Below, in pieces: positions 43,509 through 48,288 of a stretch of DNA of 64,000 nucleotides. The stretch is from Sulfurimonas sp. HSL-1716. GTDB lineage: Bacteria; Campylobacterota; Campylobacteria; Campylobacterales; Sulfurimonadaceae. The position numbers were made by a program, and so were the translations under genes. Under the pieces are notes generated by a model that searched no databases, was not told the DNA's origin, and was given only the letters and a program-made list of their open reading frames with translations. Position 1 is the first letter of the stretch. Every line of letters begins with the position of its first letter. Where the stretch lies: positions 434,001 through 498,000 of the forward strand of contig NZ_CP147918.1 of the NCBI RefSeq assembly GCF_039645975.1, written 5' to 3'.

Positions 43509-43585
43509 AATCCGCCTTCTATTTGTTTTTTGCAATTATATCGATATTCTTGCTATAATAGAGTATAAAAATGGGAGATGACGAT

Positions 43586-44311
43586 ATGCGTTTAATTATG
43601 TTCTTATTATTTAGTTCGATGCTCTCTTTTGCGATGTCCGCGGATAAAATTGCATCAGGCAGTATCGAAGGTATAGGTATTATCGAAAATGTTAAAGGCT
43701 CCGTTAAGATCATAAAAGAGGACAGTATAAAAAAAGAAAACGCAAAAAAAGGGATGAATATCTCCAAAGGCGATCTGATCAGTACTTCCTCTACCGCCAC
43801 GGCGCTTTTAAAGCTGATAGACGGTTCGTCGGTGATATTGGACAACTCCTCGTCCATCCATTTTACCGATACAAAGAATGTGGAGCAAAAAGAGGGTTCT
43901 ATCTTTTATAAGATAACCTCAAGAAGTGCAAAAAATTCGCTCAGCGTCAAGACCCCTTTTGCCATCATCGGCATTAAGGGAACGACCTTTATCGTCAACT
44001 CAAAAGATGAAGACAGGTCCGTTGCCTTAAAAGAGGGAAAAATAGGCATAGCCTCGATAAAAGAGGAGTTCGAGCTTTATAGAAAAAGAGTTCAAGAGGA
44101 GTTCACAAACTATAAAAATCAGCAGCAGGCCGCATATGAACAGTATTTAAAAGAGCTGGCGGGACAGAAGGCGGAGATGGTCAAAGAGTTTGAACTCGAT
44201 TCGGGGAACAGAGTCGTTTTTGACGATAAAAAAGTCGTAGAAAGCGAGTTCAATGACGATACAAACGCTTCGTTTAAACGTTTTGAAGATATCGCAAACT
44301 CTATGAGATGA
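43586..44311 (+). CDS. Secreted FecR-domain protein
   Basis: 241 residues from ATG 43586, which follows GGGAG (43572-43576) and opens a signal peptide (MRLIMFLLFSSMLSFAMSA). A FecR domain spans about 30-140: GIIENVKGSVKII, then KGDLISTSSTATALLKLIDGSSVIL and FAIIGIKGTTFIV. Here it lacks the sigma-regulator N-terminus of true FecR. A coiled coil (about 150-200) follows. FecR-domain proteins are often encoded with CHASE2 cyclases, as here (ATGA overlap with the next gene); a periplasmic partner for the sensor domain is likely. Confidence 0.82.
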   Translation: MRLIMFLLFSSMLSFAMSADKIASGSIEGIGIIENVKGSVKIIKEDSIKKENAKKGMNISKGDLISTSSTATALLKLIDGSSVILDNSSSIHFTDTKNVEQKEGSIFYKITSRSAKNSLSVKTPFAIIGIKGTTFIVNSKDEDRSVALKEGKIGIASIKEEFELYRKRVQEEFTNYKNQQQAAYEQYLKELAGQKAEMVKEFELDSGNRVVFDDKKVVESEFNDDTNASFKRFEDIANSMR

Positions 44312-46353
44312 AACAAAAACTTCTTTATCTTCTCATACTCTTTCCGATACTTTTAACGAGTCTTGCTTTATACCATTATAAGGTCGAGCCGTTTGAAAGC
44401 TTCTCTTTGCGTTTTAACGACATCGATTTTGATCTGCAAAAAAAGAGTCCCGATAAAAGGATAGTTTTTGTTGCCGTTGATGAGCAAAGTGTCAATGAGT
44501 ATGGAAGATGGCCTTGGGACAGGGAGATTTTGGCTAAAGGAATATCAAAATTAAATCAAGCCGACGTCGTTTTGATGGATATGATATTTTCAGAACCGAC
44601 CGAAAAACAAAAAGACAGAGCATTGGCGGATTCGTTATCGGGTCTAAAGAGCAGCGTGTGCGGTTTTTTCCTGCGGCACAATGCAACTCAAAAGATAACG
44701 CCCGATCAGGAAAACGTACTCGGTGATTCCTCTTTAGACCTTCTGCAATCACAAATAGCATCCTTCGGTGACCCTAAGTTCATCTCCGCGGACAATGCAG
44801 AGATGAATATTCTGCCTATTTTACAGAGCTGCAGTATGAGCGGCAGCTTTTCTACCCTTAGAGAGTCAGACCACCTTTTGCGCTCCTATCCGGTTGCGGT
44901 ATATTTTGACAATATGCTTTTTCCCTCACTTGCAGTGCAGGGACTCAGACTGATCTTGAACAAGGATATCAAACGGATCGATTCCCGGCATGTAAGCATA
45001 GGCGAGTACAGGGTAAATATCAATGAAAAAGGTTTTGTTCGGTTGAACTTCTACCAGCCAAAACAGTACAAAATAATCTCTTTTTTGGATCTGGTTCAAG
45101 GGAAGGTCAAACCGGATTACTTTAAAAACAAGATAGTGATACTTGGAATAACGGAAGTAGGAGCGGGGGATATCGCAGCAACTCCTATGGGCGCACTTTA
45201 CGGTCCTTTGCTTCACTATACCTTTTTGTCAAATCTATTATCACATCATCTTATAACCGAGCCTCCTTATATAACTTCGGTTTTGATAGTCATAATGGTG
45301 CTTTTGCCTTTTATTTTGCTGCTGTTTGTAAAAAAAGTCGTAAACAGGGTTGTTTTGGATATCGTCGGGTATCTGCTCGTCTATCTCTTTGTACGATACA
45401 TCTTTGTTTTTTACAACATATACAGCGATGCCTTCTATCCTCTTGTCGCTTTTATACTCAGTACCGTATCCGTTGAGGTTATGGCATTTACCATACAGGA
45501 AAAGGGCAGCAGATTTATACGAAACGCTTTTTCAAGCTATCTTTCGGCCGATCTGCTGGATAAACTGATAAAAAATCCCGAAGCGCTTTCTCTTGGCGGA
45601 GAGAAAAAAGAGCTTTCCATTCTCTTTAGCGATATCCGTGGTTTTACAACAATTTCCGAATCTATGGATCCGGTAAGTCTGATCAAACTTCTCAACCGCT
45701 ATTTTACCCCCATGACCGATGCGGTACTGCAAAACGGCGGGATGCTGGATAAGTATATAGGCGATGCTGTCATGGCATTTTTCAATGCTCCCGTTGATGT
45801 ACCCGATCATGCAAACGCCTCATGCAGAGCAGCTTTGCAGATGATCGAAGAACTCGACAAGCTAAACAAGGAACTCTCTTTAGAGGGGATAGATCCGATA
45901 CGCATAGGGATAGGAATAAATACCGATGAGGTGGTTGTCGGAAATATGGGCTCAAATACGCGCTTTAACTATACCGTCATAGGAGACGGTGTAAATCTGG
46001 CCTCGCGTGTGGAGGGGATAACCAAAAACTATGCGGTCAATATTCTTATAACGGAATTTACTTTAAAAAGATTAAAAGAGGGATTTTTGACAAGGGTTAT
46101 CGAACCTGTGAAAGTGAAGGGAAAAGATGAAGCGGTCCTCTTGTATGAACTGATGTCAAATAGCGACAGAAACGTAAATATTAAAAAAGATTATGACCGA
46201 GCCCTTGATTTATATAAAAACTCTAAGTTTGAAGAGGCTATAGTAATCTTTGAAAACCTGATCGGCGAATATGACGACAGCGTATCGAAGTATTTTTTAC
46301 CGCTGGTTAGAGAGAGACATCCATGGGGTGTTCACAAGATGACGACAAAGTAG
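44308..46353 (+). CDS. CHASE2-domain adenylate cyclase (class III)
   Basis: 681 residues. A first membrane helix (about 5-22), an extracytoplasmic CHASE2 domain (about 30-315; FDLQKKSPDKRIVFVAVDEQSVNEYGRWPW region is typical), three membrane helices (about 322-398), then the class III cyclase domain (about 432-595). Catalytic residues are complete: metal ligands D442 and D486, transition-state N563 and R567. The purine-selecting pair is K482 and T556, the ATP-specific pattern, so the product should be cAMP. A short helical tail (625-665) resembles TPR. Cotranscribed with the FecR-domain gene and the two phosphodiesterase genes. Confidence 0.88.
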   Translation: MKQKLLYLLILFPILLTSLALYHYKVEPFESFSLRFNDIDFDLQKKSPDKRIVFVAVDEQSVNEYGRWPWDREILAKGISKLNQADVVLMDMIFSEPTEKQKDRALADSLSGLKSSVCGFFLRHNATQKITPDQENVLGDSSLDLLQSQIASFGDPKFISADNAEMNILPILQSCSMSGSFSTLRESDHLLRSYPVAVYFDNMLFPSLAVQGLRLILNKDIKRIDSRHVSIGEYRVNINEKGFVRLNFYQPKQYKIISFLDLVQGKVKPDYFKNKIVILGITEVGAGDIAATPMGALYGPLLHYTFLSNLLSHHLITEPPYITSVLIVIMVLLPFILLLFVKKVVNRVVLDIVGYLLVYLFVRYIFVFYNIYSDAFYPLVAFILSTVSVEVMAFTIQEKGSRFIRNAFSSYLSADLLDKLIKNPEALSLGGEKKELSILFSDIRGFTTISESMDPVSLIKLLNRYFTPMTDAVLQNGGMLDKYIGDAVMAFFNAPVDVPDHANASCRAALQMIEELDKLNKELSLEGIDPIRIGIGINTDEVVVGNMGSNTRFNYTVIGDGVNLASRVEGITKNYAVNILITEFTLKRLKEGFLTRVIEPVKVKGKDEAVLLYELMSNSDRNVNIKKDYDRALDLYKNSKFEEAIVIFENLIGEYDDSVSKYFLPLVRERHPWGVHKMTTK

Positions 46354-46361
46354 GTTGCAGG

Positions 46362-47480
46362 ATGAACAATAACGTTGAATCATCGGAGTTTATCGAGATA
46401 ATCTTTTCATATATAACGCAGATCACCGCGGAGCGCTCTCCCGATGCTATCTTGATGCTTCTTGCCGACATGGGGCGTGTATTGGTTCGAGCGGATAGAT
46501 GTACGGTCTGGGTGGTATCACAGGATAAAAAACATCTGTGGACAAAAGCGGCGCATGGATTAAAGCACATAACGATTCCCATCAATTCGGGGATAGTAGG
46601 CGAAGCAGTAGTGAATAATAAAAGACTGATAATCGACAATGCGTACAGCGACGAGAGATTCAACCCGGAGATAGATAAGCAAACAGGCTATAAAACAAAA
46701 ACACTGCTGGTCATCCCGATGCACAATACAGAAGGCGAGATCATAGGCGCTTTTCAGGTCGTGAACAAGCTCGAGGGAAAACTTTTTACCAAGGATGATC
46801 TGCGTTATATCATGCTCGCGTCCACATATGCCGCCGAAACGGTTACGACTTCGCTTTTAATGGAGGAGATAGAACAAACGCAAAAAGAGGTCGTTTTTAC
46901 TATGGGAGCGATAGGTGAGACAAGAAGCAAAGAGACTGGAAACCATGTAAAGCGTGTAGCGGAGTATTCCTATCTTCTTGCAGTACTATACGGCATGAAC
47001 GAAGAGGAGGCTTTGCGTCTAAAAGAGGCTTCGCCGATGCATGATATAGGAAAGGTGGCGATACCCGATGCCGTTTTAAACAAGCCCGGTCCTTTCAACG
47101 AAGAGGAACGCAAGATCATGGATACGCATGCCGAACTTGGATACGAGATGCTAAAATCTTCCAACAGAGCCCTGTTAAAAGCTGCCGCAATCGTTGCATA
47201 TGAGCATCATGAAAAATGGGACGGGACGGGATATCCCAGAAGACTTGCAGGTGAAGAGATACATATCTACGGACGCATAACGGCTCTAGCGGACGTGTTC
47301 GATGCGCTTGGCAGCGACAGGGTATACAAAAAAGCGTGGGCAGATGAAAAAATATTCGAGCTTTTTAAAGAGGAGCGGGGAAAACACTTTGAGCCAAAAT
47401 TGATAGATATCTTTTTGCAGTATAAAGATAGATTTTTACTGATAAGAGAAAAATTCGCAGACAGGTTTGATCATGAATGA
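46362..47480 (+). CDS. GAF/HD-GYP phosphodiesterase
   Basis: 372 residues. A GAF domain (about 20-160; CTVWVVSQDKKHLWTKAAHG) precedes an HD-GYP domain: MHDIGK with H227/D228, HAELGYEML, and HHEKWDGTGYPRRL with G290-Y291-P292. HD-GYP proteins hydrolyse cyclic di-GMP, and some act on other cyclic dinucleotides. GAF domains can bind cyclic nucleotides, so this protein might read the cAMP made by its neighbour; that is inference. ATG 46323 (overlapping the cyclase gene) is an alternative start. Overlaps the next gene by eight bases. Confidence 0.85.
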   Translation: MNNNVESSEFIEIIFSYITQITAERSPDAILMLLADMGRVLVRADRCTVWVVSQDKKHLWTKAAHGLKHITIPINSGIVGEAVVNNKRLIIDNAYSDERFNPEIDKQTGYKTKTLLVIPMHNTEGEIIGAFQVVNKLEGKLFTKDDLRYIMLASTYAAETVTTSLLMEEIEQTQKEVVFTMGAIGETRSKETGNHVKRVAEYSYLLAVLYGMNEEEALRLKEASPMHDIGKVAIPDAVLNKPGPFNEEERKIMDTHAELGYEMLKSSNRALLKAAAIVAYEHHEKWDGTGYPRRLAGEEIHIYGRITALADVFDALGSDRVYKKAWADEKIFELFKEERGKHFEPKLIDIFLQYKDRFLLIREKFADRFDHE

Positions 47481-48249
47481 GATTACTATACTCGGAGCAT
47501 ACGGAACGAAAGGTGAAGATGTCGGGACAAGCGCATTTTATATAGACGAAAAGAATGTTTTGGATGCAGGCAATCTGCTGATCCCGCTAAAGGAGAGATC
47601 GGCGGAGATAGAGTTTATCTGGCTCTCGCATTCTCATCTTGATCATATCATAGACATAGCGTATATACTCGACAGCTATTTCGCGGCAAGAAAAAAGACC
47701 TTAAAGATACGAGGGCTGCCTCAGACGCTTCAAGCGGTAAAAGAGGATTTTTTAAATGACAGGATTTGGCCGGATTTCTCGTCTATCACTCTTTTTGGAT
47801 CCGATCTAAAATGCGTGGAATACGAAGAGATCGAGTTCAATAAAAAATATGAACTTTCAAGCGGTACGTATATAGAGGCATATAAAACGGACCATACCGT
47901 TCCAAGCTGCGGATATATCATCACGAAAAAAGGAAGTTCCGTCATCATATCTTCAGATACCTACAGCCTTGACAGCACTATAGAGATTATAGATTCAAGA
48001 GAGGATATAAAAAGTCTGGTGGTCGAGTGCTCTTTTCCCTCAAGAATGGAAAAGCTGGCAATCGATTCGAAACATTTAACGCCGAAGATATTATTTGAAA
48101 AATTAAAAGCGATGAAAAACAGAAAAATAGACATATATATTAACCATATCAAACCGCTTTTTTTAGAAGAGATGACAGAGGAAATAGAGCGTTTTCAAGG
48201 TGATTATAAAGTCAAAATATTGGAAGACGGAAGAAAAATTATTTTTTAA
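47473..48249 (+). CDS. Metallo-beta-lactamase-fold, class II cyclic-nucleotide phosphodiesterase-like protein
   Basis: 258 residues. SHSHLDHIIDIAYILDS (52-68; H53, H55, D57, H58) fits the class II 3',5'-cyclic nucleotide phosphodiesterase signature (HxHLDH, then small and hydrophobic residues, then S) better than general MBL-fold enzymes. The TDHTVPSCGYII and ISSDTY segments supply further metal ligands. It would hydrolyse cAMP or cGMP. As the last gene of the cyclase operon it would reset the signal. ATG 47473 is used; a TTG at 47467 is in frame. Confidence 0.8.
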   Translation: MNEITILGAYGTKGEDVGTSAFYIDEKNVLDAGNLLIPLKERSAEIEFIWLSHSHLDHIIDIAYILDSYFAARKKTLKIRGLPQTLQAVKEDFLNDRIWPDFSSITLFGSDLKCVEYEEIEFNKKYELSSGTYIEAYKTDHTVPSCGYIITKKGSSVIISSDTYSLDSTIEIIDSREDIKSLVVECSFPSRMEKLAIDSKHLTPKILFEKLKAMKNRKIDIYINHIKPLFLEEMTEEIERFQGDYKVKILEDGRKIIF

Positions 48250-48259
48250 TAAAAAACTC

Positions 48260-48288
48260 TTGACATTGAAAAATAATTTGTCTATAAT
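48260..48288 (+). promoter_or_regulatory. Consensus sigma-70 promoter of the tRNA cluster
   Basis: TTGACA (48260-48265), 17 bases, TATAAT (48283-48288): a perfect match to the general consensus, unusual for Campylobacterota where -35 boxes are rarely kept. The first tRNA starts 18 bases after the -10 box. Confidence 0.85.

Follow-up and report, generated by a model that had tools for sequence, protein, structure and literature searches.

A conserved FecR-CHASE2 adenylate cyclase operon of Sulfurimonas that may link cyclic AMP to cyclic di-GMP breakdown

Organization of the operon

The 64,000-nucleotide stretch of Sulfurimonas sp. HSL-1716 DNA analysed here (the window; contig NZ_CP147918.1, positions 434,001 to 498,000) contains, at 43586-48249, four intact, co-directional genes that overlap or nearly adjoin one another. 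The first encodes a protein with a FecR domain, the second a class III adenylate cyclase carrying CHASE2, the third a GAF/HD-GYP protein and the fourth a cyclic-nucleotide phosphodiesterase of class II type with a metallo-beta-lactamase fold (hereafter MBL). A first-pass annotation made from the window alone had named the same genes and domains. Its coordinates agree with the open reading frames, and its domain assignments with Pfam matches that exceed curated cut-offs for all four proteins. The features of the locus are as follows.

43530..43559, forward strand: promoter-like site TTGCAA-18-TATAAT with extended -10, 10 of 12 consensus matches, 26 nt before the FecR start
43586..44311, forward strand: FecR-domain protein, 241 aa (PF04773, 2.3e-12)
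44308..46353, forward strand: CHASE2 class III adenylate cyclase, 681 aa (PF05226, 3.2e-41; PF00211, Guanylate_cyc, 2.5e-27)
about 44374-45303, forward strand: periplasmic CHASE2 domain of the cyclase
about 45604-46134, forward strand: cytoplasmic catalytic domain of the cyclase
46362..47480, forward strand: GAF-HD-GYP protein, 372 aa, start set by comparison with the close relative G116
about 46440-46835, forward strand: GAF domain (GAF Pfam match, 1.6e-12)
about 46926-47402, forward strand: HD-GYP domain (HD_5, 2.5e-32)
47473..48249, forward strand: class II-type cyclic-nucleotide phosphodiesterase, metallo-beta-lactamase fold, 258 aa (PF02112, PDEase_II, 1.6e-13)
47629-47646, forward strand: HSHLDH metal motif of MBL, the HxHLDH of the class II family
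48260..48288, forward strand: consensus promoter TTGACA-17-TATAAT of the downstream tRNA cluster, starting 11 nt downstream of the MBL stop codon

The FecR and cyclase genes share an ATGA, and the start of MBL overlaps the end of the HD-GYP gene by 8 nt. The first ATG of the HD-GYP frame is at 46323, but the most likely start is 46362, 8 nt after the cyclase stop codon, because G116 has the same start. In three of the nearest relatives (L092, L007 and L008), the sequence ahead of FecR retains the TATAAT of the promoter-like site along with its flanks; consensus match and conservation together point to one putative promoter ahead of the operon. Terminator and promoter matches in the intergenic parts inside the operon look like background. 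The tRNA-cluster promoter marks the 3' limit of the four-gene unit, and yaaA is the divergent gene upstream. A single promoter-like site before conserved, co-oriented genes is consistent with the earlier proposal of one transcript. Compared with G116, all four genes have ratios of nonsynonymous to synonymous substitution rates (dN/dS) of 0.02-0.06, rough values given that dS is near saturation, and all four thus appear to be under purifying selection.

Fusion and conservation of the gene group

The strongest evidence that the genes form a module is not visible from the window: in relatives, HD-GYP and MBL are fused. Many Sulfurimonas (L093, L094, L096 and others) carry the two as one open frame of 640-669 aa in the order HD-GYP-MBL. 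The reversed order, MBL-GAF-HD-GYP, occurs in other families as proteins of about 640-820 aa, often with a cyclase adjoining. Upstream of two such reversed fusions (L097, L103) lie FecR and a TPR/SlipAM gene, and the HD-GYP of one of them (genome G166, L103) is 54% identical to the window protein. On a quick MBL tree, used solely to describe the clustering of architectures, the distribution of domain orders requires two or more changes. Elsewhere the GAF is retained without HD-GYP, as an MBL-GAF fusion convergent with the cyclase in G263 (L105) and as a GAF-only protein after MBL, beside the cyclase, in G233 (L104). Fusion and GAF retention, as read here from predicted proteins, are textbook indications of proteins coupled both physically and in function. 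G060 (L095) has FecR-cyclase-MBL without HD-GYP, and in G265 (L138) the HD-GYP reading frame is interrupted and there is no class III cyclase match. Because the group is conserved and the two are fused in many relatives, HD-GYP and MBL very probably work together.

Scanning genome contigs with the cyclase yielded 24 close relatives, most of which are labelled as Sulfurimonas or Helicobacteraceae metagenome-assembled genomes. On five of these contigs the sequence breaks off within the cyclase or HD-GYP gene or shortly beyond it; 17 of the 19 with enough flank keep the order FecR-cyclase-HDGYP-MBL, usually between yaaA and tuf. The arrangement is thus not confined to one strain; had it been, this would have counted against the earlier operon proposal. 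Co-occurrence was scored in 298 Campylobacterota genomes, with MBL counted at E below 1e-20 and class III cyclase above cut-off. MBL was present in 52 and the cyclase in 46: both in 42, MBL only in 10, cyclase only in four (three of them weak matches) and neither in 242. The two genes lie within 6 kb of each other in 30 of the 42 genomes, versus 0.34 expected by chance.

FecR protein and CHASE2 cyclase

Residues 1-19 of the FecR-domain protein form a hydrophobic N-terminal segment by hydropathy that fits a signal peptide, and the protein is predicted to be secreted. At one locus (L008, 1781-3715), the cyclase is preceded by two FecR-like genes that flank a thioredoxin gene. Hydropathy segments of the cyclase (3-26, 314-354, 343-371 and 375-397) comprise one N-terminal membrane segment and others before the catalytic domain; with the PF05226 match, this places an extracytoplasmic CHASE2 domain between membrane segments, as in CHASE2 receptors. 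The catalytic residues are exactly those named in the first-pass annotation, namely the metal-binding aspartates D442 and D486, the transition-state residues N563 and R567, and the adenine-binding pair K482 and T556. D442, K482, D486 and R567 are invariant across 46 aligned cyclase homologues and T556 is Thr in 45, N563 having been checked in the window protein alone. K482 and T556 point to ATP as the predicted substrate. Thr at the T556 position is a mark of the bicarbonate-responsive IIIb subclass. The enzyme is the sole class III cyclase of its own genome (G000) and is patchy in the family, with a match of at least 50% identity in 16 of 61 sampled genomes.

Elsewhere in the genome (982896-984182, L144), a second protein, a 635-aa open frame, shows a weak match (22%) to the CHASE2 half of the cyclase. 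Campylobacterota class III cyclases at L127, L130, L131, L132 and L133 have no CHASE2 match and carry HAMP, dCache-HAMP or no other domain. They contradict the statement in PMC9239204 that all Campylobacterota cyclases have CHASE2.

GAF-HD-GYP protein

The GAF-HD-GYP protein has a full-length PDB match to PmGH (4MCW, E 2.3e-99). Numbered from the ATG at 46323, it carries E204, H208, H240, D241, H269, H295, H296 and D324, the eight metal ligands listed in PMC4159591, together with G303-Y304-P305 and the E-T-G motif, a combination that places it in the tri-iron (PmGH-like) subgroup. Nearly all homologues retain the catalytic residues. With every sequence feature of the type present, the protein is likely a PmGH-type phosphodiesterase of cyclic di-GMP (c-di-GMP), in keeping with the earlier suggestion that it may join c-di-GMP to cyclic AMP (cAMP) signalling. 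A supply of c-di-GMP is indicated by 55 GGDEF matches in the 2.26-Mb genome. The reversed-order fusions mostly have Tyr instead of the E-T-G Glu, which assigns them to the two-metal subgroup by the criterion given in PMC4159591. Some of them (L097, 6756-9149, and similar) carry an insert of ~110 residues inside the HD-GYP domain that perhaps resembles the one reported for LIC_11189 of Leptospira (PMC12943098).

MBL phosphodiesterase

MBL combines a PF02112 score of 51 bits (cut-off 23.7) with the HxHLDH motif, both marks of class II enzymes, and its metal ligands are conserved without exception, with H141, D162 and H225 invariant in 54 sequences. In a PDB profile search, yeast PDE1 ranked first, at 4.5e-15 versus 1.2e-9 for RNase Z, and the stretch FLNDRIWPDF matches FNDLIWPDL of PDE1 (shared FNDxIWPD). 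The predicted model (predicted local distance difference test score, pLDDT, 96.9) has yeast PDE1, YhfI and relatives, RNase Z and the cyclic-nucleotide-degrading Apyc1 as its nearest folds. Z scores of 27.6 for PDE1 and of 26.7 and 26.1 for RNase Z amount to a tie, and fold alone does not separate the two. The profile ranking and the FNDxIWPD stretch do separate them, and place MBL closer to PDE1. Breakdown of cAMP by MBL is well supported by sequence. In G007 (L136, 5171-6714), two tandem MBL genes follow an HD-GYP gene.

Candidate cAMP receptors

Among PDB entries, the operon's GAF matches only PmGH and GAFs of cyclic-nucleotide cyclases and phosphodiesterases (20 sequences), the latter from CyaB2, PDE2A, PDE5, PDE6 and PDE10A; two other GAFs of the same genome have no PDB match at the same threshold. 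R291, T293 and D356 of CyaB2, which contact cAMP (PMC4411481), have their counterparts in its ADRCT and in the Asp of its IDKQTGY. With some of the CyaB2 contacts kept and others not, cAMP binding by the operon's GAF is plausible. The first-pass annotation had seen no cAMP receptor gene in the window. No CRP-type gene is indeed present there, but the GAF inside the operon is the best candidate receptor suggested by sequence. Two small tandem GAF-only proteins are encoded on the reverse strand at about 93.0-94.1 kb of the genome (L124, 4995-6103); they belong with the operon's GAF to the ADRCS / IDxKTG class and are possible further cyclic-nucleotide sensors.

The genome-wide search for CRP-type and PilZ receptors that the annotation had recommended was fruitful for one kind of domain: five proteins with a cyclic-nucleotide-binding (cNMP-binding) domain, all outside the window, were found, and PilZ gave no match in the genome, despite the 55 GGDEF matches. 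The best-scoring of the five, L002, was the one tracked against cyclase presence and was rejected as the best receptor candidate, with no close orthologue in cyclase-bearing G116 (41%) and a close one in cyclase-less G341 (85%). L002 thus fails to track the cyclase in the family, and no other obvious cAMP reader presents itself.

Proposed mechanism and alternatives

We lean towards reading the operon as a module that carries a membrane signal to two messengers. FecR and CHASE2 would detect an envelope condition and switch on the cyclase; cAMP would bind the GAF and alter the activity of the attached HD-GYP, thereby lowering (or sparing) c-di-GMP; and MBL, adjoining or fused to GAF-HD-GYP, would hydrolyse cAMP at its point of use and reset the switch. 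By analogy to GAF-containing animal phosphodiesterases, the GAF may also regulate MBL. The first-pass annotation had placed cAMP synthesis and breakdown in one operon and had both phosphodiesterases resetting that signal. For the cyclase and MBL the sequences support this well. HD-GYP looks more like the c-di-GMP output arm than like a second cAMP-degrading enzyme, and a resetting role shared by both phosphodiesterases is therefore probably wrong. A bolder formulation, to which we give tentative credence, is that GAF-HD-GYP and MBL, in either fusion order, are a dual-messenger phosphodiesterase whose receptor cyclase lies in the same operon: the GAF would read cAMP, HD-GYP would destroy c-di-GMP and MBL would destroy cAMP. 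If true, bacteria in which CRP-like proteins do not track the cyclase would rely on this enzyme as their principal cAMP output.

Several observations weigh against these proposals. In the GAF, CyaB2 residues I308, T309 and N359 are not kept, the NKFDE motif has N, K, F and D but L for its final E, and MBL-first fusions have Gly in place of the ADR Arg; for PmGH, which has the closest GAF, the accessible text of PMC4159591 reports no GAF ligand. FecR-cyclase pairs stand alone, without HD-GYP or MBL and elsewhere in the genome, at L023 and L024. The Fisher p of 8e-37 for MBL/cyclase co-occurrence is descriptive and ignores shared ancestry. In several genomes MBL occurs by itself between yaaA and tuf, and it persists in 10 of the sampled genomes that lack a class III cyclase, given which its substrate may be other than cAMP. 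At L024 (9292-15993), the FecR-cyclase pair is directly followed by a 1310-aa FG-GAP/cadherin-repeat protein, a neighbour that hints at surface-protein sensing.

One alternative is a feedback-controlled cAMP phosphodiesterase, in which the GAF would bind cAMP mainly to activate MBL, HD-GYP would be a loosely coupled passenger and the output would run through a receptor elsewhere, for example a CRP-like protein. The GAFs kept beside MBL and cyclase without HD-GYP (L105, L104), the FecR-cyclase-MBL group of G060 and the five cNMP-binding proteins all fit such a scheme. We nonetheless judge it rather unlikely: HD-GYP is the most frequent partner, is under strong purifying selection (dN/dS 0.02) with its catalytic residues kept in nearly all homologues, and, across relatives, presence of the best-scoring CRP-like protein is not tied to the cyclase. 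The proposed cAMP-to-c-di-GMP module would also be altered if HD-GYP acted on a different dinucleotide, such as 3',3'-cyclic GMP-AMP (3',3'-cGAMP), or were regulatory only. A 3',3'-cGAMP-specific HD-GYP (5z7c) is its second PDB match, but at 1.1e-35 a much weaker one than the c-di-GMP phosphodiesterase PmGH, and the abundance of GGDEF matches speaks further for c-di-GMP, making this highly improbable.

The identity of MBL admits a different doubt, that it does not act on cAMP at all and is an RNase Z-like or other phosphodiesterase whose position beside the cyclase would be due to some other nucleotide, cyclic or linear. The structural tie with PDE1, the survival of MBL without the cyclase and a weak match to the Ribonuclease Z model (TIGR02651) would be expected of such an enzyme, and no full RNase Z gene was found in the Sulfurimonas sp. 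HSL-1716 genome, although the close relative G116 has one. Yet the model match, at 50.5 bits, is far below the curated cut-off of 292.95, PDE1 leads by profile and by the shared stretch, and relatives have both genes or neither: a separate RNase Z accompanies MBL in G116, G129, G009 and G037, and both are lacking from G015 and G027. MBL as an RNase Z stand-in was rejected as the leading interpretation on these grounds, and we regard the broader explanation as distinctly improbable.

The role of cAMP in Campylobacterota is a question that this operon makes directly testable. If GAF-HD-GYP reads cAMP, GGDEF-rich genomes would possess a compact, direct route from envelope signal to cAMP to c-di-GMP, and the fusions offer one-protein reagents for testing the coupling of the two messengers.

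Comparison with known systems

FecR beside a CHASE2 cyclase was described in the first-pass annotation as a known pairing, and it is one: PMC9239204 (mBio 2022) describes clusters in Campylobacterota in which a CHASE2 cyclase is accompanied by a cAMP phosphodiesterase and by FecR and TPR proteins, and proposes one pathway for them. It adds that few species of the phylum have a cyclase and that most have CRP-like proteins. The operon belongs to the same phylum and likewise unites CHASE2 cyclase, phosphodiesterase and FecR gene. It differs from that cluster in having no separate TPR gene among its four genes, a TPR/SlipAM gene occurring in relatives such as L097 and L103, and in its GAF-HD-GYP, which, like the fusions, goes without mention in the accessible text of that paper. 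In the Burkholderia BiofilmReg operon (PMC5192318), FecR-CHASE2 is paired with histidine kinases as well, which suggests a reusable input module.

Individual components have well-studied counterparts. PmGH of Persephonella marina, a structurally solved c-di-GMP phosphodiesterase, has the same GAF-HD-GYP architecture, metal ligands and E-T-G motif (PMC4159591). Yeast PDE1 and the atypical class II phosphodiesterases YhfI and Rv1339 (PMC9293780), which hydrolyse cyclic nucleotides, have the solved folds closest to that of MBL and share its HxHLDH motif; they differ in being single-domain proteins, neither fused to GAF-HD-GYP nor linked with a receptor cyclase. CyaB2 of Anabaena (PMC4411481) has a cAMP-binding GAF of the same sequence class as the operon's. 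There, tandem GAFs control a cyclase, whereas the operon protein has a single GAF linked to two hydrolases.

For Lcd1 of Leptospira, the GAF domain is reportedly the cAMP sensor, and to our knowledge the protein is not part of a cyclase/phosphodiesterase operon. It is a cAMP-dependent diguanylate cyclase (doi 10.1016/j.jmb.2017.06.002, as cited in PMC12943098); there cAMP controls c-di-GMP metabolism, as proposed for the operon, but Lcd1 makes c-di-GMP instead of breaking it. Bd1971 of Bdellovibrio, a cAMP-gated EAL c-di-GMP phosphodiesterase (PMC6717892), offers another analogy, in that cAMP binding to a sensory domain controls c-di-GMP hydrolysis. Bd1971 pairs a cNMP domain of CRP type with EAL, where the operon protein has GAF and HD-GYP, and the abstract of that paper mentions neither a cyclase nor a cAMP phosphodiesterase encoded with it. 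The open-licence papers searched contained no description of HD-GYP/MBL fusions. The core cluster of CHASE2 cyclase, phosphodiesterase, FecR and TPR was already known in the phylum, as PMC9239204 documents. New here, as far as that text and the papers searched go, are the regular presence of GAF-HD-GYP beside the other genes, the fusions that join it to the phosphodiesterase in either order, and the proposal that its GAF is a candidate cAMP reader.

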